34,115 nt of DNA from Opitutia bacterium (GTDB lineage Bacteria; Verrucomicrobiota; Verrucomicrobiia; Opitutales; UBA953), in contig BGOI01000005.1 of NCBI GenBank assembly GCA_003569165.1, positions 73,560 to 107,674 of the forward strand, read 5' to 3'. Positions 5,161 through 30,031 of this stretch are shown here, piece after piece. Position 1 is the stretch's first letter; every line of letters begins with the position of its first letter. The translations under genes and the position numbers were made by a program. The notes under the pieces are model-generated. The model did no database searches and had not been told where the DNA came from. It worked only from the letters and a program-made list of their open reading frames with translations.

Positions 5161-5400
5161 GCGGTTGGCGGTTGGGGGTTGGGGGTTGGGGTTGCCATTC
5201 ACTCAAAGGGAGACCGGATGATTGGCTGGGGCCTGTCTGAGGGTAGGGCTGACCGCCTCGGTCAGCAGCGGTTGAGCGAGGGCGCTCAACCCTACCTAAA
5301 ACAGGCTAAGTCGTGACGCGGTCCCGACCCTACCCAAATCAGGTGTTGGGATTGAGAGGCTTTTCCTATCCGCCAACCGCCAACCGCTAACCGCCCAACA
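5161..5400. repeat. Composite intergenic repeat block (modules B, D, C)
   Basis: This 240-bp block separates kamA from the tRNA gene. In order it holds module B (GCGGTTGGCGGTTGGGGG, 5161-5192), half of module D (CAAAGGGAGACCGGATGATT onward, 5201-5230), module C (5242-5296), a 27-nt stretch at 5310-5336 repeated exactly at 21591-21617, and module B inverted (CCGCCAACCGCTAACCGCC, 5371-5399). The outer B copies form an inverted pair around everything else. No coding potential is evident. Confidence 0.75.
5242..5296. repeat. Twin-hairpin element C, copy 1
   Basis: 55 bp bounded by GGTAGG and CCTACC. Hairpin 1 pairs GCTGACCG (5248-5255) with CGGTCAGC (5259-5266), 8 bp. Hairpin 2 pairs GGTTGAGCG (5270-5278) with CGCTCAACC (5283-5291), 9 bp, around the loop AGGG. 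The closing pair of hairpin 1 is G-C here but A-T in copies 2-5. Confidence 0.85.
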
Positions 5401-5403
5401 CAA

Positions 5404-5428
5404 CTAACCGGGGTTTTAATCCGGTTAG
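5404..5428 (-). terminator. Hairpin downstream of the tRNA gene, possible terminator
   Basis: A perfect 8-bp stem, CTAACCGG with CCGGTTAG, around a 9-nt loop, 10 nt beyond the 3' end of tRNA-Arg on the minus strand. It lacks a clear U tract, so termination is plausible but not assured. Confidence 0.45.
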
Positions 5429-5437
5429 CGCTCAAAG

Positions 5438-5512
5438 TGGTGGGCTCGTAGGGATTCGAACCCCAAACGTCTGATCCGTAGTCAGAAATGATATCCATTT
5501 CACCACGAGCCC
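5438..5512 (-). tRNA. tRNA-Arg (anticodon ACG), CCA encoded
   Basis: A 75-nt tRNA read on the minus strand. The 7-bp acceptor stem pairs GGGCTCG (5512-5506) with CGAGCCC (5448-5442). The anticodon stem TCTGA/TCAGA closes the loop CTACGGA (5481-5475), placing ACG at 5479-5477. The T arm carries GTTCGAAT. Discriminator A is followed by a genomically encoded CCA (5440-5438). A34 would be deaminated to inosine by TadA to read CGU, CGC and CGA. Confidence 0.95.
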
Positions 5513-5563
5513 GTAGTGAGGGGTTTGAGCAAACGACCCCACGCCCCTAAGGCAAGGAATTTT

Positions 5564-6253
5564 TCAGGCCTGCGCCTGATGGAGGGCCACCGTGCCGAAA
5601 AGCATCCTTTTATGGCTCACCTTGGCGAATCCGACGGCCTTGAGCTCCGCGTTAAGGCCGTCGGCATCGGGGAAGCCCGCGATGCTGGTGCCGAGATATT
5701 TGTAAGCCCCGAAGTCGCCGGTGAGGATGCCTGCGAGCAACGGGAGGACGCAGCGCACGTGGATGAAGTGGAATGGTGCGAACCAGGCGCTCGGCTGGGA
5801 GAATTCTAGGATGAGCAACGTGCCATCGGGGCGAAGGATGCGTCGTAGTTCGCCGAGGCCTTTGGCGCGGTCTTCGAAATTGCGCACGCCATAGGCGATG
5901 GTGACCACGTCCTGTGAGGCGTCGACGATGGGCAGGGCCATGCAGTCGCCGGTCTTGAATTCAAGCGTGACGCCTTCTTTCTGCGCGCGGACACGGCCGA
6001 GCTCGAGCATCGGTTCGCAGAAATCATAGCCGATGATCGTGCAATCAGCGGGCAGGTTGCGGCGCAGGGCGAAGGCGACGTCGCCACTGCCGGTGGCAAG
6101 GTCGGCCACGGTCTTGGGCTGGGCGGCTTTAGTCGCGGCCACGAGCTGTTCGCGCCAACCCACGCACAGGCCGAGGCTCAGGACGCGGTTCGCAAAGTCG
6201 TAACGGGAGGCGATCCCAGAGAACATGCGTTGGACGGCGGAACCTTCGGGCAT
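5564..6253 (-). CDS. menG: Demethylmenaquinone methyltransferase (UbiE/MenG)
   Basis: SAM-dependent C-methyltransferase (229 aa) that makes menaquinone from demethylmenaquinone at the last step of the pathway. The N-terminal family signature VQRMFSGIASRYDFANRVLSLG, the SAM-binding motif I (VADLATGSGDVAF), the AYGVRNFEDRAKGL block and LLILEFSQP are all seen. With menD in the same window, a menaquinone role (MenG) is more likely than ubiquinone (UbiE). The start ATG at 6253 is preceded on the minus strand by GGAGGG about 7-8 nt upstream, the only good Shine-Dalgarno match I find in the window. mnmA lies upstream on the same strand but a 173-bp repeat-filled gap separates them. Confidence 0.95.
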   Translation of the reverse strand: MPEGSAVQRMFSGIASRYDFANRVLSLGLCVGWREQLVAATKAAQPKTVADLATGSGDVAFALRRNLPADCTIIGYDFCEPMLELGRVRAQKEGVTLEFKTGDCMALPIVDASQDVVTIAYGVRNFEDRAKGLGELRRILRPDGTLLILEFSQPSAWFAPFHFIHVRCVLPLLAGILTGDFGAYKYLGTSIAGFPDADGLNAELKAVGFAKVSHKRMLFGTVALHQAQA

Positions 6254-6308
6254 GGGGTTACCCTCCGCACATTGGGGAGAAGGTCAAGAGGAGGGCGGCA
6301 AACAAAGA

Positions 6309-6426
6309 GGGGCAGGGGTCGGGGTAGGGGTAGGAAATAAAACTCTACCCTCAGGAGTTTTCTGAACACCTCGCCATCATGTCTTCAGCCTGATGCATCT
6401 CCTACCCCTACCCCGACCCCTGCCCC
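6309..6426. repeat. Perfect 26-bp inverted repeat, MITE-like (family A)
   Basis: Left arm 6309-6334 (starts GGGGCAGGGGTCGGGG) and right arm 6401-6426 are perfect reverse complements over 26 bp, separated by 66 bp of AT-richer sequence. The right arm abuts the mnmA stop codon (6427-6429). This is the cleanest terminal-inverted-repeat structure in the window. The 66-bp core encodes nothing obvious. The G-rich strand could also form a quadruplex. Confidence 0.85.
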
Positions 6427-7503
6427 TTAGAGGAATACTCCTCCACCCATGAGGACGCGGTCGTGGTACACGGCGAGGACCTGGCCGGGGGCGAGGCCGC
6501 GCTGGGTCTCAGCGAAGCGGAGGCGGACGGTGCCGTCCGGCTGCGGGATGAAGCGGGCCGGCGTGGCTTTATCGCGGTAACGCACGCGGGCGAGGATGTC
6601 CTGTTCGCCGACGAGAGGCTGATTGATCCAGGTGAAGTCGCGCGCGATGGCTTCTCCGGTGTAGAGCCACGGCGCGTCCGGTTTATCGAAGGCGACGTGC
6701 AGGGTGTTGTTCGCGAAGTCTTTCTTCACGACGACGAAGTATTCGTTGTCGGTGTTGGAGGGCAGGCCGATGCCCTTGCGCTGGCCGATGGTATAGCGAT
6801 GCAGGCCGCGGTGCTTGCCGATTTCCTTACCCGCGGCGTTGACGACTGGGCCGGGCGAATCCGGGATGTGCCGCTCGAGAAAATCCTGCACCGGAATCTG
6901 GCCGAGGAAGCAGATGCCTTGGCTGTCCTTGCGTTCCGCGTTCGGCAGCTGCGCGTCCGCCGCGAGTTGGCGGACTTCGGGCTTGAGTAGTTCGCCGATC
7001 GGGAAAATCGCCTTCGCGAGCTGTTCCTGCCGGAGCAGCGCGAGAAAGTAAGACTGGTCTTTGTTCGGGTCGAGGCCTTCGAGCAGGTCGAACGTGCCGT
7101 CCGTATTTTCGCGTCGGCGCGCGTAGTGGCCGGTCGCGATGACGTCATAGCCGTCCTTGATCGCCTTGCGCAGGAAGACGCCGAACTTCATCTCGCGATT
7201 GCAGATGATGTCGGGGTTGGGGGTCAGGCCTTGGCGGTAGCCATCGACGAGGTATTGGACGACTGTGTCGCGATAGTCTTGGACGAGGTCGATGATCCGG
7301 AAGGGTAGACCCAGGTGCTCGGCGACCGCCTGGGCGTTACGGACGTCGTCCTCCCAGGGGCATTCGCCGGGGAAGGGCAGGCCCTCCTCGTTCATCCAGG
7401 TCCGGAAGTAGGCGGCATGCACCTCATGCCCTTGCTGCTTGAGCAGAAGGGCCGCCACGGCGCTATCAACACCGCCGGAGAGGGCTACCAGGACCTTGGA
7501 CAT
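6427..7503 (-). CDS. mnmA: tRNA-specific 2-thiouridylase MnmA
   Basis: Cytoplasmic ATP-dependent enzyme (358 aa) that puts sulfur on U34 of tRNA-Lys, -Glu and -Gln to give s2U. The PP-loop ATP pyrophosphatase motif SGGVDS is at residues 9-14. The two catalytic cysteines are C101 (NPDIICNREMKFG) and C198 (DSQGICFLG). The C-terminal beta-barrel domain ends normally with RVLMGGGVFL. Length matches the family. Downstream on the same strand is menG. The start has no Shine-Dalgarno sequence. Confidence 0.97.
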   Translation of the reverse strand: MSKVLVALSGGVDSAVAALLLKQQGHEVHAAYFRTWMNEEGLPFPGECPWEDDVRNAQAVAEHLGLPFRIIDLVQDYRDTVVQYLVDGYRQGLTPNPDIICNREMKFGVFLRKAIKDGYDVIATGHYARRRENTDGTFDLLEGLDPNKDQSYFLALLRQEQLAKAIFPIGELLKPEVRQLAADAQLPNAERKDSQGICFLGQIPVQDFLERHIPDSPGPVVNAAGKEIGKHRGLHRYTIGQRKGIGLPSNTDNEYFVVVKKDFANNTLHVAFDKPDAPWLYTGEAIARDFTWINQPLVGEQDILARVRYRDKATPARFIPQPDGTVRLRFAETQRGLAPGQVLAVYHDRVLMGGGVFL

Positions 7504-7552
7504 CGGCTGGCAAGGTAGGGCGGGGACGGGCGGGGATACAGATTAATTCCAA

Positions 7553-7632
7553 GGGGCAGGGGTGGGGGTAGGTAATGGGTAGGGCTGACCACCTTGGTCA
7601 GCCGCGGCTGGGCGAGGGCGCCCAGCCCTACC
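7553..7632. repeat. Family A tract followed by twin-hairpin element C, copy 2
   Basis: A G-rich tract (AAGGGGCAGGGGTGGGGGTA, 7551-7573) runs straight into element C at 7578-7632 (55 bp). Hairpin 2 is GGCTGGGCG/CGCCCAGCC; relative to copy 1, two base pairs have changed on both sides together (T-A to C-G and A-T to G-C). Hairpin 1 is GCTGACCA/TGGTCAGC. The block lies between the divergent mnmA and the LysM gene. Confidence 0.8.
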
Positions 7633-7671
7633 TTGCTTGCTCTCCCGCCTTGGGCATGTTTTCCTCCGTCC

Positions 7672-8265
7672 ATGCGTTTCGGCATTCTTTTTCTTTTCCT
7701 CGGTCTTCTTCCCCTCTCGGCTCAGAACGCCCAAATCGCGGGCATGCAGCAGGACCTCGCCGAGCTTCGGAACGAGGTCGAGAAGCTTAAGCTCGAGAAC
7801 GCCGACCTGCGCTCGGCCCTCAATCGCCAGAAGGCCAGCCAGTCTCCGGCCGTATCGCAAGGTGAAGCGATTTCCAAGGCACGCGTCGAAACCTTGACTG
7901 AAGTGGATCGTCGCTTGAAGCAACAGACCGACGAAGTGAACGCGGCGCTCGCCGAGCTCACTCGCCAAGTGAACGCCGCCCTTGGCAAGACCGGCCCCGC
8001 TCCTGCCACGAAGGCTGGCAAGTCGCCCAATGCTCCTGCCGCTCAGACCGAAGCCCCCGCCACAACCGAAGCGGGCGGCTCTTCCGGCGTCCCCCAGACC
8101 GGTATCAAGTATCGCGTCAAATCGGGCGACATGCTCGCCAGGATTGCCCTCCGCAACGGATCAAAGGTCGAATGGATTATGAAAGCGAATAACCTTTCCT
8201 CGCCTAACGACCTGAAAGCGGACGTCGATATCTTCATCCCGCAGGCCGAAACCCCGGCTCGCTAA
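7672..8265 (+). CDS. Secreted coiled-coil LysM-domain protein
   Basis: Exported protein of 197 aa. Residues 1-18 form a signal peptide (MRFGILFLFLGLLPLSAQ). Residues 20-105 are heptad-rich (MQQDLAELRNEVEKLKLENA) and likely coiled coil. Residues 106-145 are an Ala/Pro/Thr-rich linker. Residues 147-190 are one LysM domain (YRVKSGDMLARIALRNG...IMKANNL) that should bind peptidoglycan. I chose the ATG at 7672 because the open frame upstream runs through repeat element C and lacks a signal peptide. It precedes parB by 19 nt, so the two are probably co-transcribed. It is probably a periplasmic cell-wall protein; no enzyme domain is present. Confidence 0.85.
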   Translation: MRFGILFLFLGLLPLSAQNAQIAGMQQDLAELRNEVEKLKLENADLRSALNRQKASQSPAVSQGEAISKARVETLTEVDRRLKQQTDEVNAALAELTRQVNAALGKTGPAPATKAGKSPNAPAAQTEAPATTEAGGSSGVPQTGIKYRVKSGDMLARIALRNGSKVEWIMKANNLSSPNDLKADVDIFIPQAETPAR

Positions 8266-8284
8266 TCTCTCTCAAACAAGCCCC

Positions 8285-9184
8285 ATGGCCACTCCTCCTA
8301 AGAAATCCCTCGGTCGCGGTCTCGGTTCCCTCATCGGCGGTGGCGTGGTCAAGCCCGCCGCGCCCGCTCCGGTCACCGTTGCTGCCGCTGCTCCCGTCGC
8401 GCCGGGTCTCCAGCTACAGGAACTGCTGCTCACTTCGATCGTCCCGAATCCTCGCCAGCCGCGCCGTGATTTCGACGACGCCCAGGTGAAGGAACTTGCG
8501 GACTCCATCCGCTCCGAAGGCCTCATGCAGCCGATCGTCGTTCGGAAGGTGAAGGACGGCTACGAACTCATCGCCGGCGAACGCCGTTTCCGCGCCTTCA
8601 AGCTGATCGGCGAGAAGACCATTACCGCGCGCATCCTCGAGGCCAGCGACGCTTCCAGCGCCGTGCTCGCGCTCATCGAGAACCTGCAGCGTGCCGATCT
8701 TAATGCCATCGACGAAGCCCTCGGCTTCGCCTCGCTGATGCGTGACTTTAGCCTCACCCAGGAAGCCGTCGCGGAACGTCTCGGCAAGCCGCGCGCCAGC
8801 ATCGCGAACAGCGTCCGTCTCCTCGCCCTCGACAACGAACTCCAGGGTTACGTGCGTAAGGGCCAGCTTTCTGCCGGTCACGCCAAGGCCTTGCTCGCCA
8901 TCGAGAACGTCGCCCACCGCGTACAGGTCGCCCGACTCGTGATCGAGAAGGGTCTTTCCGTCCGCGCCACCGAGGCTGAGGTCAAGAAGCTCGCTTCGAC
9001 CAAGAAGACTGATCGCAAGCAGACCGTCCAAACCGTCGTCGCCGACGTCCAGAAGCGCCTCGCGTCCCATTTCGCCTCTCCCGTCTCCGTCGTCCGTAAG
9101 GGCACCAAGGGCAGCATCTCGATCCCCTTCAGCAGCGACGACGAACTCGCCCGCCTGCTCGAGAAGATTGGGATCAAGCTCTGA
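8285..9184 (+). CDS. parB: Chromosome partitioning protein ParB
   Basis: ParB/Spo0J CTPase-type DNA-binding protein (299 aa) that loads at parS sites and works with ParA in chromosome segregation. The N-terminus KKSLGRGLGSLIGGG contains the ParA-stimulating motif. Family blocks follow: IVPNPRQPRRDFDDAQVKELADSI, the nucleotide-binding GERRFRAFKLIG, ENLQRADLNAIDEALGF, and the helix-turn-helix LTQEAVAERLGKPRASIANSVRLLAL. The C-terminal dimerisation segment ends LLEKIGIKL. parA is not adjacent, which is unusual; a LysM gene sits in its place. I saw no canonical parS palindrome in the window. Confidence 0.95.
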   Translation: MATPPKKSLGRGLGSLIGGGVVKPAAPAPVTVAAAAPVAPGLQLQELLLTSIVPNPRQPRRDFDDAQVKELADSIRSEGLMQPIVVRKVKDGYELIAGERRFRAFKLIGEKTITARILEASDASSAVLALIENLQRADLNAIDEALGFASLMRDFSLTQEAVAERLGKPRASIANSVRLLALDNELQGYVRKGQLSAGHAKALLAIENVAHRVQVARLVIEKGLSVRATEAEVKKLASTKKTDRKQTVQTVVADVQKRLASHFASPVSVVRKGTKGSISIPFSSDDELARLLEKIGIKL

Positions 9185-9200
9185 TAAGAGTAAGGTGAGA

Positions 9201-9325
9201 GCGGTTGGCGGTGAGCGGTTGGCGGATAGGTGAATGCCAAGAAACAAAAAGCCCGGGGGCAGGTGACTCCGGGCTTTGATTTGGCTGTGCTCTGGTTTTC
9301 CCAACCGCTCACCGCCAACCGCTAC
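9201..9325. repeat. Inverted pair of family B repeats around a terminator
   Basis: GCGGTTGGCGGTGAGCGGTT (9201-9230) and its inverted counterpart CCAACCGCTCACCGCCAACC (9300-9325) flank the hairpin at 9248-9277. Both arms share the same GAGC/GCTC variant of the unit, so the arms match each other better than they match other B copies. This suggests that they arose or were homogenised as a pair. Confidence 0.75.
9248..9281. terminator. Intrinsic terminator between parB and purH
   Basis: A 9-bp stem AAAGCCCGG (9248-9256) with CCGGGCTTT (9269-9277), with A-rich sequence on the left and T-rich on the right. It lies between convergent parB and purH and can serve both strands. Confidence 0.75.
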
Positions 9326-9347
9326 CACCTCGGCGGCCTCCGGCCGC

Positions 9348-10887: not shown

Positions 10888-10898
10888 GGTGAAAGAAA

Positions 10899-11076
10899 GG
10901 GCTAGGGGTAGGGGGAGGGGGTGGGGTGGTCAAGGAAGCAGGAGGAGTCGATAGCGGTTAGCGGTTGGCGGTTGGCGGTTAGCGTAAGGTAAAGGGGAGG
11001 GCGGTCTGAGCCTTGGTTTCGCTAGTTCTTCTGTTTTTTGCGTTTCCCAACCGCTAACCGCTAACCGCCAGCCGCT
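10899..11076. repeat. Family A tract plus inverted pair of family B repeats
   Basis: The gap between divergent purH and fabD holds a G-rich tract (GGGCTAGGGGTAGGGGGAGG, 10899-10929). It is followed by B repeats AGCGGTTAGCGGTTGGCGG (10953-10985) and the inverted partner CCCAACCGCTAACCGCTAAC (11046-11076). About 60 bp of unremarkable sequence lies between the B arms. No gene is evident. Confidence 0.75.
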
Positions 11077-11133
11077 TGGGCGTTCCGCCTCTCCATCATT
11101 GACCCTCCCGCCCTTTTTCCCTCCCTCCTACCA

Positions 11134-12042: not shown

Positions 12043-12116
12043 ACCCCCTTCTGTTTGGGGCTAACGCTGGACAAGCGCCCCGTCCGCAGTCCTATTAAGC
12101 CCTTTCCCTCTTTACC

Positions 12117-13916: not shown

Positions 13917-13975
13917 GCCCCAAATTCGGGCTTTCCCTCGGGTAGGTCGGCGTGTAGTTTGGCGGGGTCCTCCCC

Positions 13976-15333: not shown

Positions 15334-15334
15334 T

Positions 15335-15527
15335 TTAGGGGTAGGGGCAGGGGTAGGGGTAGGACGTGATTGCTATCACGTCCGTGGGCGGACGGATATC
15401 ATACGGTCGATGACCTTGCCCGGCTCGACAATCCTGCCATGGCGAACGGCGGCCATGGCAATGGCCGCCCTACCTTCGGCATCCCATGCCTTGCCTACCC
15501 CGACCCCTAACCCTATCCCTATCCCTG
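15335..15527. repeat. Family A inverted pair enclosing hairpins related to element C
   Basis: Between lepB and the GNAT gene. G-rich arm 15335-15363 (TAGGGGTAGGGGCAGGGG) faces a C-rich arm at 15494-15527 (CCTACCCCGACCCCTAACCC). Inside are a hairpin CGTCCG/CGGACG and a 9-bp hairpin GGCGGCCAT (15448-15456) with ATGGCCGCC (15461-15469), followed by CTACC. The last has the same geometry as hairpin 2 of element C (9-bp stem, 4-nt loop, CTACC boundary), so it may be a diverged copy. Confidence 0.65.
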
Positions 15528-15540
15528 CGTCGCAACCACC

Positions 15541-19187: not shown

Positions 19188-19192
19188 CAGGT

Positions 19193-20899: not shown

Positions 20900-20991
20900 G
20901 GGCACAGGCAATCCAGCAAGGGCAGGGCTGTCCAGCGTCGGCTTGGTTTTGAGTTTAAGCCCGGCCGATTAGCCCTACGTTTTAACGTCAA

Positions 20992-21330
20992 ATGGAGGTC
21001 TTCCTGCATCTGTTGCCCCTGCTCGGGTCCTTGGCGTTCACGGGCCTCCTAATTCATGCGATCTTCTGGGGGATGACGTTCACCATCGACGAGGCCTTCG
21101 TGCGCGTGCGCGTCTACGGTTGGACCGCGCGTCAGGTCGCGCTGAGCGATATCGAATGGGCGGCGCAGGATTGGTGCTTCTGGAACGAGCATTATACCAA
21201 CACCGTGAACCCGAAGCAGATGATCCTACTCCGCCGCCGCACCGGCGTGTTCAAGAATTTCCTCATCAGCCCGCCGTTACCGCCGGAGTTTCTGAAGGAA
21301 CTCGCTGCCCGTGGGGTGACGGTGAGGTGA
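20992..21330 (+). CDS. Small membrane protein of unknown function
   Basis: 112 aa. Residues 5-28 form one hydrophobic segment (FLHLLPLLGSLAFTGLLIHA), followed by a mixed region with VRVYGWTARQVALSDIEWA that resembles a small PH-like membrane-associated domain. Functional assignment is not possible. It is divergent from menD with an 92-bp gap and is followed by element C copy 3. Codon use is normal for the window, so it is probably real. Confidence 0.65.
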   Translation: MEVFLHLLPLLGSLAFTGLLIHAIFWGMTFTIDEAFVRVRVYGWTARQVALSDIEWAAQDWCFWNEHYTNTVNPKQMILLRRRTGVFKNFLISPPLPPEFLKELAARGVTVR

Positions 21331-21335
21331 CTTTA

Positions 21336-21392
21336 GGTAGGGCTGACCACCCTTGGTCAGCCGCGGTTGAGCGAGGGCGCTCAACCCCTACC
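21336..21392. repeat. Twin-hairpin element C, copy 3
   Basis: 57 bp directly after the stop of the small membrane protein. Hairpin 1 is GCTGACCA/TGGTCAGC with an extra C in the loop compared with copy 1. Hairpin 2 is GGTTGAGCG/CGCTCAACC. Boundaries are GGTAGG and CCTACC. Confidence 0.85.
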
Positions 21393-21406
21393 CAAGGCAG
21401 AGAGAC

Positions 21407-21617
21407 TTTTCGGGTCCCAGGTCTCGGCCCTCGGGTTTCTGGTTCAGGTCTTCAGGTGCAGGTTCAGGTCCCGGGTCCCGAACCTGAACCTTCTCACCCG
21501 TACCGGGTCCCCGATTGCCGAGACCCGAGACCTGAAAATGTGCATCCCAACTGATAACCCGGTCTCCGGTTCCCCTTTGAGACATGCTATGTCGTGACGC
21601 GGTCCCGACCCTACCCA
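21407..21617. repeat. Large imperfect palindrome, half D module and 27-nt shared stretch
   Basis: Outer arms 21407-21435 and 21510-21538 match in inverted orientation at about 23 of 29 positions (TTTTC...GGTCTCGGC). Nested inside is a perfect 10-bp hairpin AGGTTCAGGT (21460-21469) with ACCTGAACCT (21482-21491). Further right is a right-hand D arm (CCCGGTCTCCGGTTCCCCTT, 21558-21578). The 27 nt at 21591-21617 are identical to 5310-5336. No coding potential. Confidence 0.7.
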
Positions 21618-21634
21618 TTGAAGGTCGCCCAATA

Positions 21635-21660
21635 AAAAACCCCGGTCGCCCGGGGTTTTT
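21635..21660. terminator. Bidirectional intrinsic terminator
   Basis: A perfect 11-bp stem AAAAACCCCGG (21635-21645) with CCGGGGTTTTT (21650-21660) and loop TCGC. Runs of T follow on both strands. It ends the DUF3500 gene on the minus strand and anything coming from the plus strand. Confidence 0.92.
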
Positions 21661-21671
21661 GTTTCACCGGC

Positions 21672-22706
21672 TTACTTGCCGGCTGCGTGTTCTTTGGCGT
21701 GCTCGGCGAGCGGGTCGTAGGCGAAGTCCTTCTTCAGGTCGCGCCACGAGGCGTGGACGTGGTTGGCGCCGCCCTGGAAGTTGGCCATTTCGAAGAGGAA
21801 GGTCGGGCCCTGGATGCTGTAGTAGTGGGGCTCGCCGACTTCGAGGCCGCCGTTCCAGGCGAAGACGAGGGAGTCCTTCACGGCGTCGATCGCCTTGATC
21901 TCGCGGACGGCGAAGTCGGGGCGGGCGCGGCTGACGTATTCGAAGATGATCTTGCCGAGCATCTGCTTCTGTTCGGCGGTGAGGGCCGTGGCGGCGATGC
22001 CCTTGTGCTTGATGAGTCCGTCGGCCTTCTGCTTGTTGCCGGTCACGATGTCCTTGAAGGGATCCTTGCTGAGGAAGCCCTGCTTGCGCTGCTCGGGCGT
22101 GAGCGACTTCGCGAGCTGGCGGCCGAGGTCGTCTTCATACTGGAGCACTTCCAGACCCACTGGGCCGGGCTGGCCTTCCTTGATCTTGCCCGGGTTGCTG
22201 GCGAAGAAGGAGGGCGTCGAGCTCACGAGCTCGCCGTCGACGAGCGTGAAGTTGAGGGACAGATGGTGACCTTCCCAGCGGAAGCCCCAGGTGCCCTTGG
22301 CGTTCGGAGCGCCGAAGATTGAGACGAAGTAGTTCTCGGCGTCGCGCTTCGGGCCGGAGTCCTTCTCGAGTTCGAACAGCACGTGTTCGAGGGCCATGAT
22401 TTGTTCGGCCTTCATATGCCCGCGACCGCTGAGGGCGACGGAGAGGATGGCCTGAGCGAAGTGGCGCTGGCCGGGATTCATTTCCTTGAGCGGCAGGCCC
22501 TTGCGGGCAGCCGGGACGAAGATCCAGTTCGTGCGCTCGGCGTCATTGAAGCCGAAGGTCGCCTTGGCCTTCTGGTCGGCGTTGAGCGAACCGAGGAAGG
22601 CGCTGGCGGCCGAGGACATTTCTTCGCCGGCGGTATGGCCGAAAGCGGCGGGGACGGCGGCGGCCAGGAGGCACAACACGCTGAGGAGACGGGTGAGGGA
22701 ACGCAT
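21672..22706 (-). CDS. Secreted DUF3500 protein
   Basis: 344 aa from the ATG at 22706, where a signal peptide begins (MRSLTRLLSVLCLLAAAVPA, cleavage near AFG). The open frame upstream of it has no such signal and was rejected. Family landmarks of DUF3500 are FGFNDAERTNWIFVP, RKGLPLKEMNPGQR, GTWGFRWEGHHLSLNFTLV and, near the end, HYYSIQGPTFLFEMANFQGG with NHVHASWRDLKKDF. Histidines in the last two blocks suggest a metal or substrate site, but the family has no established function that I know of. It is transcribed alone, with a strong terminator 12 nt past its stop. Confidence 0.9.
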   Translation of the reverse strand: MRSLTRLLSVLCLLAAAVPAAFGHTAGEEMSSAASAFLGSLNADQKAKATFGFNDAERTNWIFVPAARKGLPLKEMNPGQRHFAQAILSVALSGRGHMKAEQIMALEHVLFELEKDSGPKRDAENYFVSIFGAPNAKGTWGFRWEGHHLSLNFTLVDGELVSSTPSFFASNPGKIKEGQPGPVGLEVLQYEDDLGRQLAKSLTPEQRKQGFLSKDPFKDIVTGNKQKADGLIKHKGIAATALTAEQKQMLGKIIFEYVSRARPDFAVREIKAIDAVKDSLVFAWNGGLEVGEPHYYSIQGPTFLFEMANFQGGANHVHASWRDLKKDFAYDPLAEHAKEHAAGK

Positions 22707-22762
22707 GAGGGGTATCAGGTAAGGACAGGGGTGTAAGGGAAGGGTTCCCTCAGAGCCAGAAA

Positions 22763-22894
22763 GGAATGGCGACGAAGACGCCATTCCGTGCAAAAGTGAT
22801 AAAAACGGCCTCTTGGCAGCCTGTGTTGATGGGCCTCGGTTTGGGCCACGCTTGCACCTTTGCACAGCGCATCGCGCGATTTGCACTTTTGCAC
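22763..22894. repeat. Hairpin and 11-bp inverted repeat downstream of the ABC-F gene
   Basis: The 209-bp gap between the ABC-F stop and the DUF3500 start holds a perfect 9-bp hairpin GGAATGGCG (22763-22771) with CGCCATTCC (22779-22787), followed at once by GTGCAAAAGTG (22788-22798). The perfect inverse of the latter, CACTTTTGCAC, lies at 22884-22894. Two further TTGCAC words lie between them. The hairpin may act as a terminator, although its T run is short. Confidence 0.55.
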
Positions 22895-22915
22895 GCGCAG
22901 CCTTGGGCTTCGCGC

Positions 22916-24775
22916 TCAGGCGCTTTCTGCTTCGCTCAACTTCTGCGCGGCCTGTTCCCAGGCGGCGGTGGCGGTCTGCAGGGCGTTGATCGTGTCGCGG
23001 AGGCGGGCGTTCAATTGCGGGAGATTCACGCCGCCAGTATAGGTGGCCGGGTCGGCAAGTTCAGCGGTGATCTGGGCCTGCTTGGCTTCGAGGTCGGCCA
23101 CCTGCTGTTCACACTTCGTGACATCGGCTTTCAGCTTACGGATATCCGAAGCGGAGGGTTTCGCCGGGGTCTTCGGCTTTTCGGCCTTCGGCGCTTCATC
23201 CTGTTTTGGACGGGCGTCGGTGAAGCCGGCGGTGAGCGCGGCGCGCTCGTTGCCGGACTTGGACTTCTCGAGGTAGTAGGCGTAGTCGCCGGCGTAACTC
23301 GTGAGGCGGCCAGAGTGCACATGCAGGACGGTCTTGGCGATCTCGCGGATGAAGTGCACGTCGTGGCTCACGAAGTAGAGCGTGCCTTCGTACGTCTTCA
23401 GGGCGGCGATGAGCGCGTCGATCGACATGATGTCGAGGTGCGTCGTCGGTTCGTCCATGAGCAGGAAGTTCGGCGGATTGATCATCAGCTTCACCAGGGC
23501 GAGGCGGGATTTCTCACCACCCGAAAGGACTGAGACGCGCTTATTCACGTCGTCCTTACGGAAGAGGAACGTGCCGAGCATGCCGCGGGCCTGCTGTTCG
23601 GTGAGGCCGTTCTCCGTGGTGCGGAGCTCCATCACGTTCTCGAGGACGGTCAGCTTCGGGTTGAGGTTGTCGACGCGGTTCTGGGCGAAGTAGCCGGTGA
23701 TGACGTTGCCGCCTTCCTCGCGCACGCCGCCGTTAATCGGGATGACGCCGGCGAGGATCTTGAGGAGGGTGGACTTCCCGGCGCCGTTGGGGCCGACGAG
23801 CACGGTGCGCTGGCCGCGTTCGCATTCAAAATTAAGGTCCTTATAGACGACGTGCTCGCCGTAGGCCTGCTGGACGTGCTCGAGCTTCATGACCTTCAGG
23901 CCAGAGCGCGGCGGCTGCGGGAAGCGGAACTGAATCTTCTTCAGGTCGTCCTCGGGCTCGTCGATTGCGACTTCCTCGAGGCGGGCGATCTGCTTTTCCT
24001 TGGATTTCGCGCGAGAGGCCATGGAGGCCTTGGCGCCGAAACGGTCGACGAACGTCTGGAGGTGCGCGATCTCGCGCTGCTGGTTCTTGAACATCGCCTG
24101 CTGGCGATCCTTGCGGGCCACGCGCTCGAGGATGAAGTCGTCGTAGTTGCCGTTATAGCAATGCAAGCGCTGGGCGCGGAGTTCGATTGTACCGGTGCAA
24201 AGCGCGTTGAGGAAGGCACGGTCGTGCGAGATGACGACAAGACCTCCGGGGTAGCGCGTCAGGTAGTCCTGGAACCAGAGCAGGGCTTCGAGGTCGAGGT
24301 GATTGGTCGGTTCGTCGAGGAGCAGGAGTGTGGGCTCGCTGACGAGGAGGCGGGCGAGGTGGGCGCGCATGACCCAGCCACCGGAGAAGGTCTTAGCGAC
24401 CTTCTCATGGTCGCTCTCGCGGAAGCCGAGGCCAGCGAGGATTTTTTTCGCGCGCGGCTCGAGCGTGTAGTCGATATCCCAGTCGTCGTCGTTCTCGGGC
24501 TCGAGCTTACCGCCGCTGGTGGCGATTTGGAGAATCGTCTCATCGCCGGCCGGCGCGCTTTCCTGGGGAAGGAAGCCGAAGTTCGCACCGCGTTCCCACT
24601 CGATCAGGCCTTCGTCCGGCTGGTCTTTGCCGAGGATGATATTGAAGAGGGTGGACTTGCCGGCGCCGTTGGCGCCGACGAGTCCAAGCCGGTCCGTCCG
24701 GGCAATATTCAACGAGACCTCCGCGAACAAGGTGCGGGGTCCGTAGGACTTGGAAATATTGGCAATCGTCAGCAT
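22916..24775 (-). CDS. ABC-F family ATPase
   Basis: Soluble twin-ATPase of the ABC-F group (619 aa from the ATG at 24775), which acts on ribosomes rather than as a transporter. The first cassette has Walker A GANGAGKS (34-41) and the ABC signature as FSGGWVMRAHLARLL with DEPTNHLD. The second has GPNGAGKST near residue 327 and LSGGEKSRLALVKLM near 418 with DEPTTHLDI. Between them is the linker region (about 250-300) with basic residues that contacts tRNA in this family. The last 60 or so residues form a C-terminal coiled coil (KADVTKCEQQVADLEAKQA), as in Uup/YheS-type members. Subfamily and exact role cannot be fixed by eye. Confidence 0.93.
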   Translation of the reverse strand: MLTIANISKSYGPRTLFAEVSLNIARTDRLGLVGANGAGKSTLFNIILGKDQPDEGLIEWERGANFGFLPQESAPAGDETILQIATSGGKLEPENDDDWDIDYTLEPRAKKILAGLGFRESDHEKVAKTFSGGWVMRAHLARLLVSEPTLLLLDEPTNHLDLEALLWFQDYLTRYPGGLVVISHDRAFLNALCTGTIELRAQRLHCYNGNYDDFILERVARKDRQQAMFKNQQREIAHLQTFVDRFGAKASMASRAKSKEKQIARLEEVAIDEPEDDLKKIQFRFPQPPRSGLKVMKLEHVQQAYGEHVVYKDLNFECERGQRTVLVGPNGAGKSTLLKILAGVIPINGGVREEGGNVITGYFAQNRVDNLNPKLTVLENVMELRTTENGLTEQQARGMLGTFLFRKDDVNKRVSVLSGGEKSRLALVKLMINPPNFLLMDEPTTHLDIMSIDALIAALKTYEGTLYFVSHDVHFIREIAKTVLHVHSGRLTSYAGDYAYYLEKSKSGNERAALTAGFTDARPKQDEAPKAEKPKTPAKPSASDIRKLKADVTKCEQQVADLEAKQAQITAELADPATYTGGVNLPQLNARLRDTINALQTATAAWEQAAQKLSEAESA

Positions 24776-24840
24776 CGAAGGGGCGATAAAGGGGCCTATG
24801 AGGGCGAGGTCAAGGGTCGCTTGGGTGACCGCCTGACCTT

Positions 24841-25016
24841 GCCCTCGAGGGGGCACGTGGGCACGAGTAACGAGTAACGGGGAAGGGGTTAGGCTGTCTT
24901 GGGTAGGGCTGACCACCCTTGGTCAGCCACGGTTGAGCGAGGGCGCTCAACCCTACCATAGGCTGTAGGTGGGTTACTTTCCCCGTGTCACCGTGCCCCC
25001 GTGCCAGCTTGTCCCC
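24841..25016. repeat. Intergenic repeat block with element C, copy 4
   Basis: Element C copy 4 is at 24902-24957 (hairpins GCTGACCA/TGGTCAGC and GGTTGAGCG/CGCTCAACC). It is flanked by a loosely inverted pair: GGGGGCACGTGGGCACG with ACGGGGAAGGGG on the left (24848-24887), and ACTTTCCCCGTGTCACCGTG with CCCCGTGCC on the right (24976-25005). The layout is again an outer inverted pair around an inner double hairpin. It lies between nadK (ending 25021) and the ABC-F start. Confidence 0.75.
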
Positions 25017-25020
25017 TCGA

Positions 25021-25833
25021 TTACGACCACTTCAGCTTACTGCGCAGGACGTCGAAATGGGTGAGCGATTTCGGGCGCAGGAGGGCGAGTTGGACCTTGG
25101 CGGTGCGGATGACGAGGGGGAGTCGGCTCTGGGCCTCGAGGGTCTCGCGGCCGTCGACCGAAAGGCCGAGTAGGGCGCTGTCCTCGCTGCGGATCTCGAG
25201 TTCGGTCTCGCCGTCGAAGATCACGGAGCGGTTCGACAGCGTGTGCGCGCAAATCGGGGTCAGGACGATCACCGAGGCGGCGGGGTCGACGAGTGGGCCA
25301 CCAGCGGCGAGGTTGTAGGCCGAGGTTCCGGTGGGAGAGGCGAGGATGAGTCCGTCGGCGCGGTATTCGTTCACGCGGGCGCCGTCGGCGAGCACGGAGA
25401 AACGACCCATGCGGAAGACGTCGCGCGTCTTGATGACGAGGTCGTTCAGGGCCAAGGCGAAGCTGCCGTCGGCGAAGCGAATCTCGAGGAGCGCGCGCTT
25501 CTCGACGCGGAAGTCGCCGGAGAGAATCGACTGGAGCGAGGCGCCGACGTCTTCGCTCGGGTAGGCGGCGAGGAAGCCGAGCTTGCCGCGGTTGATGCCG
25601 AAGAGCGGGACGCCCTCGAGTGCGGCGGCTTCGGCCACGCCGAGGAAGGTGCCGTCGCCGCCGACGACTCCGCAGGCGTCGGCGCCCTGGAGGGTGGCAC
25701 GACTGATGGGCCAGCCGTCGGCGACCGTGAGGGTCACGCCGGCTTTCTGGGCGGCCTCCTGGACTGCGCGCACGATATCATCCACACCGGGCTTGGTGCG
25801 GTTGACGACGAGCGTGAGGCGGCGGATGGCCAT
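25021..25833 (-). CDS. nadK: NAD kinase
   Basis: Phosphorylates NAD+ to NADP+, the only route to NADP in most bacteria. 270 aa. The diphosphate-binding GGDGT is at 58-62, INRGKLGFL at 80-88, the NAD-binding ND pair at 130-131 and SPTGTSAYN at 166-174 (the family consensus is SPTGSTAY, here with T and S exchanged). The conserved PICAHTLSNRSVIF block follows. A secreted-protein gene lies 66 nt upstream on the same strand. No close Shine-Dalgarno sequence. Confidence 0.95.
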   Translation of the reverse strand: MAIRRLTLVVNRTKPGVDDIVRAVQEAAQKAGVTLTVADGWPISRATLQGADACGVVGGDGTFLGVAEAAALEGVPLFGINRGKLGFLAAYPSEDVGASLQSILSGDFRVEKRALLEIRFADGSFALALNDLVIKTRDVFRMGRFSVLADGARVNEYRADGLILASPTGTSAYNLAAGGPLVDPAASVIVLTPICAHTLSNRSVIFDGETELEIRSEDSALLGLSVDGRETLEAQSRLPLVIRTAKVQLALLRPKSLTHFDVLRSKLKWS

Positions 25834-25899
25834 GAATGACGACTAGGCGTCCCTCAGGGAAGGGCAAGGACAAGCCGGGGCTTCCGGCCTATAAAACCC

Positions 25900-26604
25900 T
25901 TATTTCGTGGCCTTTTCTGGCTTCGGCGTGAGGAAAGCCATCCGGTAGGTGAGGCTGACCTCGAAGCGCTTGCCGCCGAGCGATGTCACGTTGACCGGGC
26001 CGGCGAGGGCGGTGAGCTCGAGCGTCCACTGTCCCTCGGGTAGATGCTTCTTGGCTTCTTCGAAGTCGTTTTTGATCTGATCGAGCAGTTCGTTGCGGTA
26101 GTCCTGCGGATTGGTGAGCACGTACTCCGGATTACCGATGACCTGCTTCTCGTTGTCATCTTTCGCCTTCACGAGATCGGCGGCCTTGGAGCGGAGGACT
26201 TCGAGGCCCTTGAGTCCTTTGTCGGCTTCAGTGTGGAGTTCCCAGCGCGCATTAGCGACATACGTGACGTCACCCTGGTCGGCTTCATCATCGCCGAAGA
26301 GTTTGCTGCCGCTGGCCGGACGCGAGACGTACGACTTCGCTTCAGCGCGCGCGAACTCCGCGGAAACCTCGCGCAGTTCCCAACCCGGCTGGTCGGCGAA
26401 ACGCTTCTCAAGTTCCTTGCGGATCGCGTCGATGCGGGCGTCGACCGCGGCGCGGTCCTTGCCTTTGATGGTGACGGACAGCGGCAGGGAAAGGTGATCG
26501 GCGTCGACCTGCATGCGGACGTGTTGCTTCGGGCTTTGGCCGGTGTGACCGCTTTGCGCGGCGAGCGTCAGGGGGAGCAGGAGGAGAAAGGCGAAGAGGC
26601 GCAT
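25900..26604 (-). CDS. Secreted protein of unknown function, weakly SIMPL-like
   Basis: 234 aa from the ATG at 26604, which begins a clear signal peptide (MRLFAFLLLLPLTLAAQ). The open frame further upstream translates a 12-bp minisatellite and was not used. The mature part is charged and soluble, with SLPLSVTIKGKDRAAVDARI, a helical stretch IRKELEKRFADQPGWEL, and VTYVANARWELHT. This alternation of a beta strand, a long helix and a Y-A-x-A strand is reminiscent of SIMPL/DUF541 periplasmic proteins, but the match is too loose to name. Likely periplasmic. It is upstream of nadK, possibly co-transcribed. Confidence 0.7.
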   Translation of the reverse strand: MRLFAFLLLLPLTLAAQSGHTGQSPKQHVRMQVDADHLSLPLSVTIKGKDRAAVDARIDAIRKELEKRFADQPGWELREVSAEFARAEAKSYVSRPASGSKLFGDDEADQGDVTYVANARWELHTEADKGLKGLEVLRSKAADLVKAKDDNEKQVIGNPEYVLTNPQDYRNELLDQIKNDFEEAKKHLPEGQWTLELTALAGPVNVTSLGGKRFEVSLTYRMAFLTPKPEKATK

Positions 26605-26669
26605 GGGGAGAGGAATAGAGGGTCCGAGGGCCGGAGGCAATAAGAGGAGTTGGGTAGATAGACCATGGA

Positions 26670-26736
26670 GGACTGAATGGAGGACAGAGGACTGAATAGA
26701 GGACTGCGTTGAGGACTGGATGGAGGGCTGAATGGA
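26670..26736. repeat. 12-bp tandem repeat (family F)
   Basis: Five 12-bp units and one truncated unit based on GGACTGAATGGA: 26670-26681, a 7-nt partial unit 26682-26688, then 26689-26700, 26701-26712, 26713-26724 and 26725-26736. Units differ at one to four positions. A related but scrambled version (CCAGCCCTCTGTCCTCTCTT) lies inverted at 29959-30010. Confidence 0.8.
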
Positions 26737-26750
26737 AAAGTCCCGCGACC

Positions 26751-26967
26751 GGCCACCTGGGGCTGCCACCTGTCACCCGAAGCGAAATCATGACACTCAA
26801 AGGGAGACCGGAGACCGGGATATGTGCTTCGGATATTAATGCACCCCAGCCAATCATCCGGTTTCCGGTCTCCCTTTGATTGCCTGTATTCCCAACCGCT
26901 TACCGCTAACCGCCAATACCTAACCAATGCCAGTGTTACCTAACCCTAGCCCTACCCCTGTCCCTAG
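26751..26967. repeat. Composite intergenic repeat block (modules E, D, B, A)
   Basis: This 368-bp alaS-side gap is nearly all repeat. After family F come module E inverted (GGCTGCCACCTGTCACCCGA, 26751-26787) and a complete module D. The D arms 26797-26818 and 26858-26879 are inverted copies with a single mismatch in 22 bp, around the core CCAGCCAATCATCC. Then come module B inverted (CCCAACCGCTTACCGCTAAC, 26891-26918) and a C-rich A tract (CCTAACCCTAGCCCTACCCC, 26939-26967), which ends next to the alaS stop at 26973. Confidence 0.8.
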
Positions 26968-26972
26968 GTGTC

Positions 26973-29663
26973 TTAAACAACACTACCCAAAGCCTCGGCG
27001 ACCTTGGAGACGTCGGTACCGCCGCCCATCGCGGCGTCGGGCTTGCCGCCACCCTTGCCGCCCAGCTTGCCGCAGGCGTCGGTGACGATCTTGCCGGCGG
27101 CCTTACCCGCCTTGACGGCGTCCGGGCCGCAGTTGGCCACGAGGGAGACCTTATCGCCGAAAACGGCGGCGAGGACGACGACGGCCATAGGACCGACCTT
27201 GCCGGCCACCTTGGCGCCGAGGTCGCGGAGATCGTTGGGCGTCTCGGCACTGACCTGGGCGATGACATACTTTAGGCCGGCGCGGTCGCTCGCCTTGGCG
27301 GCGAGGGTATCGGCGAGCTGCGAGGATTCCTTGTCGCGGTAGACCTTGAGCTTCTTCTCGAGTGCGGAGCTCTGCTCCATGATCTGCTCGAGGCGTTTGG
27401 CGAGATCGGCGATCGGCGTATTGGTCGACGAGGCGAGCGCCTTCAGCAGCTCGGCTTCGGACTTCGCGCGTTCGTAGGAGGCGAGGCCGGCGACGGCTTC
27501 GATGCGGCGGACGCCCGCGGCGATGGCGTTCTCGCCGACGATGCGGAAGAGGCCGATCTCGCCCGTGTGGCGGACGTGCGTGCCCGCGCAGAGTTCCATC
27601 GACCAGCCGTTGAGGGAGGCGGCCTTGCCGCCAACCTGCACGACGCGGACGGAGTCTCCGTACTTGTCGCCGAAGAACTGCATGATGTCGGGGCGGCCCT
27701 TGACGGAGGCGTAGGCGACTTCGCTCCACGTCACGGCGTCGTTGGCAAGGATGCGCTCGTTGACGAGCTTCTCGATGTCGGCCAACTGGCCCGGCGTGAG
27801 CGCCGCGCCGTTGAAGTCGAAGGTCAGCTTCGTGGGGTCGACCGCGGAACCCTTCTGGGTGGCTTCCTTGGAGACGACTTCATGGAGCGCCCAGTGCAGG
27901 ATGTGCGTGACCGTATGGTGGCGCTGGATGGCGTCGCGGCGGGCCTGGTCGACGGCGATCTCGATTGTCGCGCCGGTCTCGGGGGCGTCTTCGCCATCGA
28001 GGAAGTGGAGCCAAGTCTGGCCAGACTTCTGGGTGTCGGTGACGTGCCACTGGCGGCCTCCGAGGGTGATAATCGCGGCGTCGCCGACCTGGCCGCCCAT
28101 CTCGGCGTAGCAGGGGGACTTATCGAGGATGACAGCGGAGCGGTCCTTGATTTTGGCGATCTGGGCGACCTTGGCCTGCGTGGTGAGGGCGTCGTAGCCG
28201 ACAAAGGTGGTCGGGTGGTCGGAGCCGATGTCGGAGAGCGTGATGATTTCCTTCTTCTGCGCCGCGCGGGCCCGGTTACGCTGCTCTTCCATCAGCTTCT
28301 CGAAACCGGCGCCGTCGACCGTCAGGCCGCGTTCGCGGGCCATGAGCTGCGTGAGGTCGAGCGGGAAGCCCTGCTCGTCATAGAGGCGGAAGGCGATGGC
28401 GCCCGAGATGGTGCCGCCGGCCTGGAGCTTGTTGGCTTCGTCTTCAAAGAGGGCGATGCCCTTGTCGAGGGTGCGGTTGAAGGATTCTTCTTCGATGCGG
28501 ATCACGTCGGCGACCACCGTGCGGCGGGTGCGGATCTCCGGGAAGACGTCGCCCATCGTCTCGGCGAGTACGCCGACGAGCTGGTGGAAGAAGCCGTTCT
28601 TCAGGCCGAGCGTGCGGCCGTAGCGGACGGCGCGGCGCAGGATGCGGCGGAGGACGTAGTTGCGGTCGGAGTTACCTGGCTGGATGCCGTCGGCGATCGC
28701 AAAGGAGAGCGTACGGATGTGGTCGGCGATGACGCGGAAGGCCACGTCGTCCTTCTCCTGCTGCGTGTCGCCGATCGAGCCGGCGGCGGGCAGGGTGGAG
28801 CTGTATTTCTTGCCCGAGAGTTCCTCGAGGCGACGGAAGAGTGGCGTGAAGACGTCGCTCTCGTAATTGGAGATCACGCCGGAGAAGTCCTTGAAGTTCT
28901 TTGTGCACTGCATGATGCCGGCGACGCGTTCGAAGCCCATGCCCGTGTCGACGTGGCGGGCCGGGAGCGGGCTGAAGGTGCCGTCTGGGTTAGCGTTGAA
29001 CTGGATGAAGACCACGTTCCAGATTTCCATGCAGCGAGCGTCGCTGCCGTTGACGAGCGTACCCTTCGTGTCGCCCTCGGGCGTGAGGTCGACGTGCAGT
29101 TCGGTGCAAGGACCGCAGGGGCCGGTCTCGCCCATCATCCAGAAATTATCTTTCTTATTCCCGTTCACGATGTGCACCTCGGGGTCGAGGCCGGCGGCGC
29201 GGAACTTCTCGGCCCAGACGTCCCAGGCTTCCTGGTCGAACTCGGATGGGTCGCCCTTAGACTTGTCGGGCTTATAGACCGTGGCGTAGAGGCGGTGCTT
29301 CGGGAACTTCCAGACCTCGGTGATGAGCTCCCAGGCGAAGTCGATGGCCTCGCGCTTGAAGTAGTCGCCGAAGGACCAGTTGCCCAGCATCTCGAAGAAC
29401 GTGTGGTGGTAGGTGTCGAGGCCGACGTCCTCGAGGTCGTTGTGCTTGCCGCCCGCGCGGATGCACTTCTGGGTGTCGGCGGCGCGGCCCGGGACGTAGG
29501 GGCATTTCGTCTGGCCGAGGAAGATCGGGACGAACTGGTTCATCCCGGCGTTGGTGAAGAGCAGGTTAGGGGAGTCCGGCATCAGGCTCGACGATTGGAC
29601 GATCGAGTGCTGCTTCGATTTGAAGAAATCGAGGAAGGATTGGCGGACTTGGGCGGAGGTCAT
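26973..29663 (-). CDS. alaS: Alanine--tRNA ligase
   Basis: Class II aminoacyl-tRNA synthetase (896 aa, normal size) that charges tRNA-Ala and edits Ser/Gly mischarging. The N-terminus RQSFLDFFKSKQHSIVQSSS, FTNAGMNQFVPIFLG, RAGGKHNDLEDVG and TFFEMLGNWSFGDYFK (motif 2 region) mark the catalytic domain. The editing domain keeps HHTVTH near residue 581 and CAGTHVRHTGEIG near 690, which together supply its zinc ligands. The C-terminal DHHA1-type domain ends GGGKPDAAMGGGTDVSKVAE. The leader contains a small hairpin with a T run just before the start. Confidence 0.98.
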   Translation of the reverse strand: MTSAQVRQSFLDFFKSKQHSIVQSSSLMPDSPNLLFTNAGMNQFVPIFLGQTKCPYVPGRAADTQKCIRAGGKHNDLEDVGLDTYHHTFFEMLGNWSFGDYFKREAIDFAWELITEVWKFPKHRLYATVYKPDKSKGDPSEFDQEAWDVWAEKFRAAGLDPEVHIVNGNKKDNFWMMGETGPCGPCTELHVDLTPEGDTKGTLVNGSDARCMEIWNVVFIQFNANPDGTFSPLPARHVDTGMGFERVAGIMQCTKNFKDFSGVISNYESDVFTPLFRRLEELSGKKYSSTLPAAGSIGDTQQEKDDVAFRVIADHIRTLSFAIADGIQPGNSDRNYVLRRILRRAVRYGRTLGLKNGFFHQLVGVLAETMGDVFPEIRTRRTVVADVIRIEEESFNRTLDKGIALFEDEANKLQAGGTISGAIAFRLYDEQGFPLDLTQLMARERGLTVDGAGFEKLMEEQRNRARAAQKKEIITLSDIGSDHPTTFVGYDALTTQAKVAQIAKIKDRSAVILDKSPCYAEMGGQVGDAAIITLGGRQWHVTDTQKSGQTWLHFLDGEDAPETGATIEIAVDQARRDAIQRHHTVTHILHWALHEVVSKEATQKGSAVDPTKLTFDFNGAALTPGQLADIEKLVNERILANDAVTWSEVAYASVKGRPDIMQFFGDKYGDSVRVVQVGGKAASLNGWSMELCAGTHVRHTGEIGLFRIVGENAIAAGVRRIEAVAGLASYERAKSEAELLKALASSTNTPIADLAKRLEQIMEQSSALEKKLKVYRDKESSQLADTLAAKASDRAGLKYVIAQVSAETPNDLRDLGAKVAGKVGPMAVVVLAAVFGDKVSLVANCGPDAVKAGKAAGKIVTDACGKLGGKGGGKPDAAMGGGTDVSKVAEALGSVV

Positions 29664-29668
29664 GGACG

Positions 29669-29696
29669 AAAAAAGGAAGGGGTCTTTTTAAGACCC
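29669..29696 (-). promoter_or_regulatory. Terminator-like hairpin in the alaS leader
   Basis: On the minus strand a 7-bp stem GGGTCTT/AAGACCC with loop AAA (29696-29680) is followed within 5 nt by a run of six T, ending about 5 nt before the alaS ATG (29663). It could act as an attenuator or as the end of an upstream transcript. No tRNA-sensing T-box is recognisable. Confidence 0.4.
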
Positions 29697-29731
29697 TGTC
29701 GGGGGAAAAGGGAAGGGAAATGAGGGGTGGA

Positions 29732-30010
29732 AGCGGTTAGCGGTAGGCGGTTGGCGGTTAGGCTGATGCCAGATTCAAAGGGAGACCCGAAACCGGGAAG
29801 GATGCTGCGGCCATAAAAGGCCCATGCCAATCATCCGGTCTCCGGTTTCCTTTTGCTCGTACGCCTTTGTCTCGAGGTAGGGCTGGCCATCCTTGGCCGG
29901 CCGCGGCCGAGCAGGGATGCTCGGCCCTACCCGATACAGGTGACAGGCCATTCTTCATCCAGCCCTCTGTCCTCTCTTCCGTCATCTGTCATCTGCCATC
30001 GACTCAGTCC
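29732..30010. repeat. Composite intergenic repeat block (modules B, D, C copy 5, F-like)
   Basis: The gap between alaS and the next gene (29664-30031) holds four modules in order. Module B is at 29732-29762 (AGCGGTTAGCGGTAGGCGGT). A diverged D module has arms 29775-29796 and 29835-29855 around GCCAATCATCCGG. Element C copy 5 is at 29876-29931. A family F-like inverted segment lies at 29959-30010. The module vocabulary is the same as in the gap on the other side of alaS, in a different order. Confidence 0.8.
29876..29931. repeat. Twin-hairpin element C, copy 5 (most diverged)
   Basis: Hairpin 1 is GCTGGCCA/TGGCCGGC: the A-T pair of other copies has become G-C, and one G-T wobble has appeared. 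Hairpin 2 is GGCCGAGCA/TGCTCGGCC: three base pairs differ from copy 1 (two T-A to C-G, one G-C to A-T), all compensated, so the stem is still perfect. Confidence 0.85.
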
Positions 30011-30031
30011 TCTCCGGCCGCTCCGCCGCGT

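Follow-up and report, generated by a model that had tools for sequence, protein, structure and literature searches.

The window analyzed here, a 34,115-nucleotide stretch of an Opitutia bacterium genome (G000; 2.03 Mb in 37 contigs, 86.6% complete), carries five copies of a small twin-hairpin element between its genes. We assign a probability of roughly 0.93 to the reading that each copy is a REPIN, a pair of repetitive extragenic palindromic (REP) sequences of the GTAG type placed head to head and spread in trans by a REP-associated tyrosine transposase (RAYT), with the hairpin stem being read mainly as a shape. This reading is based on the anatomy of the copies, their number in the genome, the covariation of their stems, the REPs that flank RAYT genes, the agreement between REP class and RAYT tree, and the presence or absence of copies between species. 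The hairpins within a copy are one REP type facing itself, and the five copies comprise four members of one family (class B, copies 1–4) and one of another (class A, copy 5), two features that the initial annotation of the window had missed.

All five copies lie at the coordinates first proposed (Table 1) and outside the genes predicted by a home-made codon-usage gene caller. From the outside inward, each consists of GGTAGGG at both ends followed by a hairpin, and the two hairpins, when read in the same orientation, are units of one kind, as in the class A example of GTAGGGCCGACCATCCTTGGTCGGCC and GTAGGGCCGAGCATCCCTGCTCGGCC, with a spacer of 2–4 nt between them. The GGTAGGG...CCTACC pattern has five matches in the window and none in each of 200 dinucleotide shuffles. 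The compensated differences described initially are all present: copy 1 closes the loop of hairpin 1 with G-C and the other four copies with A-T, the A-T/G-C pair change in hairpin 1 belongs to copy 5, which also has a T.G wobble in this hairpin, and hairpin 2 has two compensated changes in copy 2 and three in copy 5. The 8-bp length given for hairpin 1 holds for copy 1, while the stem is 9 bp long in the other copies. As single-stranded DNA, all five fold into the cloverleaf-like three-way structure that had been envisaged (−20.5 to −24.1 kcal/mol; folding z-scores of −5.3 to −7.2 for each copy alone), and copy 4 gives like folds from both strands. The view that the element belongs to no named repeat family is not supported, as the repeats fit published GTAG REPs, head-to-head (HH) dimers, and REPINs.

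The initial annotation would have been refuted by few or no further copies or by a lack of covariation, and neither is the case. In G000, we find 59 places that match the dimer pattern GGTAGGGN{36,48}CCCTACC, which takes in other stem classes, and none that match a backward control pattern. The fetched loci yielded 57 places, from which three of other stem classes were removed to give 54 family members, a lower bound for the genome (34 distinct, with many copies identical across sites); the count covers dimers of 50 to 64 nt and thus omits examples such as C1:183920 and C1:463705. Forty-seven of the 54 sort into class A, including a mosaic of classes A and B at C1:448111, and seven into class B. 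None lies inside a predicted gene. The inverted orientation of the REPs in all 54 is set by the search pattern; in 52, a CC-type REP faces a GC-type REP, and in the other two, both REPs are CC-type. Likewise by construction of the pattern, GGTAGG is found at both ends of all 34 distinct copies, one of which has an extra C on one side.

In an alignment of the 34 distinct copies, 99.1% of cells are paired, and both sides are changed in 12 of 23 pairs. The covariation score is 0.236, compared to 0.115 in shuffles and 0.014–0.065 with slid partners. This strong compensation in stem pairing supports the original proposal that structure is kept beyond sequence. The changed pairs are confined to the two hairpins, with none in the outer GGTAGG/CCTACC helix; because this helix is nearly invariant (4/5 pairs never vary) and belonged to the search pattern, the covariation speaks neither for nor against the three-way junction. 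The foot is also nearly invariant (mean entropy of 0.02 over the 34 copies), and among the 25 distinct class A copies, the loops (0.14–0.17 bits) are less variable than the stems (0.29–0.34 bits). When loop and stem identities between partner REPs are compared in eight classes (K left out for unequal length; C, D, and F not included), the loop is better kept in A, B, E, G, H, J, and L, with class B amounting to a tie (4/6 vs. 8/12), and worse kept in class I (4/7 vs. 8/10). Partner-REP loops are unlike in classes A (by one base), B, G, and I, which speaks against a simple rule; a fixed loop with a free stem is a tendency and no rule.

G000 contains four RAYT genes (NCBIfam NF047646; 80.1, 77.3, 69.6, and 68.2 bits), one of which was recovered by a Pfam Y1_Tnp search. 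All four have GTAG REPs on both sides, with a different REP class at each. Two identical class A REPINs, of the family of copy 5, enclose the class A RAYT (L025; C1:465330–465704), and class A REPs also flank the RAYT of L136 (G004). Directly downstream of the class A RAYT (L025:1184–1421), single class A REPs occur in tandem with a 40-nt period (one step of 38). Class B REPs flank the RAYTs of four loci in congeners, L130 (G001), L137 (G004), L142 (G008), and L160 (G024), and these REPs are identical or nearly so to those of copies 1–4. No class B RAYT was found in the G000 assembly (86.6% complete), and those that we observe are all in congeners. Of the RAYTs for classes A and B, G000 thus yielded that of class A alone, so its class B copies are probably relics, unless a class B RAYT is encoded in sequence that the assembly lacks.

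The RAYT of L001/L028 retains the HVH motif and the Y of YILQNPVRANMV, which we take to be the catalytic parts of a RAYT. It scores 69.5 bits against NF047646 (cut-off of 80) and 22.6 bits against the IS200 model, the RAYT model being its best in NCBIfam, and it matches Pfam Y1_Tnp (26.8 bits; cut-off of 23) as well as the solved TnpA-REP, PDB 4er8 (E of 6e-5). RAYTs of metagenome-assembled genomes (MAGs) of Opitutae are 54–74% identical to the L001 RAYT.

To place REP classes on a RAYT tree, we read 40 loci: four of G000, 32 RAYT-model matches of the genus, and those of four out of six relatives, setting aside the more distant L023 and L024 as well as RAYT-model matches outside the genus. Six of the 40 are without the HxH motif and four are proteins of ~300 aa without REP dimers, leaving 30 short RAYTs with flanking REPs as rows in the tree, of which 28 are different (two identical pairs). 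Two RAYTs from named MAGs are identical to RAYTs of the congener G002, which is therefore probably the same as, or very close to, the MAG Umea2p1_bin-0805. Together with the 54–74% identity of Opitutae RAYTs to that of L001, this makes an Opitutae-type verrucomicrobium the most likely host. The ~300-aa proteins (L131, L148, L153, and L154) are of Y1 type and match the RAYT model without having flanking GTAG REP dimers; they probably represent a different group. With 12 REP classes labeled by eye, five of which have one row each, REP class requires 11 changes on the tree, the minimum possible, compared to a mean of 22.1 after shuffling, and 0/200 shuffles reach 11. For 11 of the classes, a RAYT is present in the window's genus, while class L is represented by a single observed RAYT, in a named Verrucomicrobia MAG (L022).

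The dimer pattern is present in 22/25 genomes of the genus (own included) and in 0/13 genomes of the order's other families, while RAYT-model matches occur in 17/25 and 5/13, respectively. Over the 25 genus genomes, dimer number correlates with RAYT number (rho of 0.52, p of 0.008, uncorrected for kinship or completeness), a comparison in which dimers of other classes are counted as well and some of the ~300-aa proteins are among the RAYTs.

We compared orthologous gaps between congeners at nine sites, namely those of the five window copies and of L010, L030, L038, and L045; gaps were counted where both anchors were found, and one gap each at copies 2 and 4 (L108 and L078) contains a run of N. 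At the copy 1 site, class B is found in 6/19 gaps, including our own, and in decayed form in two more. With the element in the same place, a G-C to A-T exchange in hairpin 2 separates G000, G039, and G024 from G013, G002, and G040. The same gap contains other classes in G011 and G007 and is short and without an element in G005 and G018. At the copy 2 site, a REPIN is present in 2/23 gaps (G000 and G015). G003, which is 89–92% identical at the genes neighboring copy 2, has, like others, a low-complexity palindrome, with the end CCCTACCTTGCTTGC in common. The copy 5 site has class A in G000 alone (1/15 gaps, own included).

At three of the nine sites, a congener has a REP or REPIN of a different class in the same place, and the sequence on one or both sides is unchanged or almost unchanged. 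Among the 16 gaps compared at the copy 3 site, class B is present in G000 and, in altered form, in G024, while the position is taken by a class J REPIN in G001 and G041, where the right flank is the same or nearly so (CAAGGCAGAGAGACTTTTCGGG in G000); many of the other gaps are ~1 kb with further content. At the copy 4 site, class B occupies 5/18 gaps, whereas G023 has a class L REPIN in this place, between two almost unchanged flanks. In G001 (L083), a class L REPIN is followed by a left-over class B right hairpin, a hybrid that is possibly a replacement intermediate. Further classes are found here in G039, G042, G004, and G041, in differing flanks. The third swap is at L030, which has class A in G000 and G003 and, in G011, a class E REP that immediately follows an almost identical left flank. 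At L010, we see class A in G000, class H in G015, and class B with a class L-like element in G012, although orthology is less sure at this site because the left flank is itself a repeat. L038 has the same class A REPIN in G015 and none before the matching flank in G042, and L045 has the same class A REPIN in G003 and G042, with the REP just upstream differing in class.

Different REP classes beside orthologous RAYT genes have already been published (PMC3686654), and in our searches of the open-access literature we found no report of same-position class swaps at other intergenic sites. We tentatively suggest, at slightly under even odds, that between species a REPIN of one RAYT class can take the place of a REPIN of another, with existing REPINs or the short adjoining sequence serving as shared landing or exchange sites for several RAYTs. 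A TGYMTY motif occurs within 11 nt outside at least one end in 43/54 copies (left in 30, right in 20, both in 7) and in 12/1080 control windows, the motif having been derived from the same flanks in which it was counted; it may represent a target, or else belong to the element as its outermost part.

In the mechanism that we propose, a RAYT, as a single-strand HUH/Y1 transposase, would recognize the GTAG foot, hairpin, and loop on one strand, cut near the folded single strand, and join the element elsewhere, spreading the REP pair in trans. Copies 1–4 and copy 5 would be served by two RAYTs. With the stem read mainly as shape, its bases may drift if the partner base follows, and the foot and loop would be held more tightly. 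Such paired drift would be expected by analogy with perfect-palindrome REPs, for which loop bases and GTAG are described as mattering for cutting and stem sequence as mattering less, with a stem mismatch being harmful (PMC8266576). For the present REPINs, we infer the cutting, strand choice, and transposition. The "mechanism that copies palindromes" of the initial annotation comes close to this explanation, which we consider the best.

Several observations weigh against the REPIN reading. Of the eight genomes in the genus that gave no RAYT match, five nonetheless contain 5 to 19 dimers, so either copies survive the loss of a detected RAYT or need none, or the RAYT is in sequence missing from the assembly. 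Three of the four G000 RAYTs fall below the curated NF047646 cut-off of 80 bits, with that of L025 (80.1) above it. Copy 2 looks like a replacement of part of an older palindrome and not like a clean insertion, and we found no clean empty site with undisturbed flanks, the joined-flank search for such sites being swamped by other repeats while revealing further class differences. In one of the five covariation measures, further pair types, the count stays at the level of shuffles (17 vs. 16.4). Over all 34 distinct copies, the loop 2 columns are more variable (0.58 bits) than the stems (0.37 and 0.46), because classes A and B differ in loop 2.

Three other explanations bear on the same data. 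The compensated changes may reflect the copying of differently sequenced source REPs, or hairpin-templated repair, and not selection on each stem. That many copies are identical across sites (34 of the 54 being distinct) implies that whole variants spread, and stem variants recur as sets, as would be expected from source copying; against this, the G-C to A-T exchange at the copy 1 site argues for a change in place or a replaced copy, and we regard this origin as unlikely though worth keeping in mind. A structured RNA or transcription terminator under selection in the transcript, with the twin hairpin protecting mRNA 3′ ends or stopping transcription, would account for the kept pairing, G-U wobbles included, and for the location of 49/54 copies in tandem or convergent gaps, and REPs elsewhere are thought to act on mRNA (PMC3733652). 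This is improbable given that tRNA alone was matched by Rfam in the window at the gathering score, that no terminator-like site is found at copies 3–5 (21200–30100 covered), and that the strands of copy 4 fold alike. Avoidance of promoters is not clear, with 3/52 copies in divergent gaps, which make up 3682/31973 gap bases (11.5%), and the RAYT-flanking copies and the agreement of class with RAYT are left unexplained. An RNA role might have been acquired secondarily by a mobile element.

Terminal inverted ends, small size, and presence or absence between species are also features of a non-autonomous miniature inverted-repeat transposable element of an ordinary DDE transposase, for which GGTAGG/CCTACC would be the terminal inverted repeats. 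We find this barely credible, as the enzyme genes between such repeats are Y1/HUH RAYTs, the internal hairpins are conserved as well as the ends, and no target duplication was noticed, by eye, in the listed flanks of the 54 copies.

Other repeats lie near the REPINs (Table 1). Adjoining copy 3 is a 132-bp imperfect palindrome (21407–21538) with 66-nt arms that are 73% complementary and have no gap between them. The segment 21407–21581 recurs in part, at about 70–84% identity, at many places in G000 and related genomes and is a second, different repeat family. The arms of the long inverted repeats consist of short degenerate tandem units, GGGGTA/GGGGCA and GCGGTTA/GCGGTTG, and congeners have a palindrome of such units at the copy 2 site, in place of the REPIN of G000.

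Table 1. Coordinates of the REPINs and of neighboring features in the window
Feature	Coordinates	Strand	Length (nt)	Remarks
Long inverted repeat	5143–5190 and 5350–5398			Same type as the long inverted repeats below, arms in opposite orientation
REPIN copy 1, class B	5242–5296		55
REP 1 of copy 1	5242–5266
REP 2 of copy 1	5270–5296	minus
Single REP, class F	5310–5334	minus		GGTAGGGTCGGGACCGCGTCACGAC; class F also flanks RAYT of L141 (G007)
tRNA-Arg gene	5438–5512	minus		Near REPIN copy 1
Long inverted repeat	6308–6338/6397–6427			Intergenic
REPIN copy 2, class B	7578–7632		55
Long inverted repeat	9193–9222/9301–9330			Intergenic
Long inverted repeat	10960–10993/11043–11076			Intergenic
REPIN copy 3, class B	21336–21392		57
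Repeat CCGGTCTCCGGTTTCCCTTTG and inverse CAAAGGGAGACCGG	21545–21579, 26844–26878, 29821–29855			In many intergenic gaps of the genus
Single REP, class F	21591–21615	minus		Class F also flanks RAYT of L141 (G007)
REPIN copy 4, class B	24902–24957		56
REPIN copy 5, class A	29876–29931		56	Cognate RAYT outside the window, G000:C1:465330–465704

The spread of REPs is still described as poorly understood (PMC8266576). Here, one genus has RAYTs with at least 11 REP classes, and related species have different classes in the same gaps. As a natural experiment, this lends itself to asking which bases are read by a RAYT, how changes in REP and RAYT go together, and whether one REPIN can displace another. 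It also offers a caution: intergenic DNA that looks like a structured RNA with strongly covarying pairs can turn out to be a mobile DNA hairpin.

When compared to known systems, the elements resemble the REPINs of Pseudomonas fluorescens SBW25 (Bertels and Rainey, PMC3116915) in having two inverted REPs as a unit, in being extragenic, and in being tied to RAYTs. The SBW25 REPINs have an intervening sequence between the REPs, and the compensatory changes named in that account concern this part, whereas here the REPs are 2–4 nt apart and each folds on its own. The GTAG REP super-family, as described in PMC3733652, shares the GTAG foot, stems of 5–13 bp, HH dimers 1–5 nt apart in some families, sub-families with alternative complementary stem residues, and heterodimers. 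Opitutus terrae is reported there as highly enriched in GTAG repeats, and its GTAG-17 has partners 1–2 bp apart, a likeness at the level of the published description; our host probably belongs to a different genus of Opitutae type. In PMC8266576, the group 3 REPtrons of Stenotrophomonas and Marinomonas are likewise described as having a perfect short palindrome with a short loop. The IS200/IS605 insertion sequences use the same Y1 transposase family as these RAYTs, but the repeats here travel without the gene, and the best model is that of a RAYT. Compensated changes in REPs and REPINs have already been published. The system is therefore of a kind already known, REPINs with several RAYTs, while the swaps of class at the same position are less expected and worth following.

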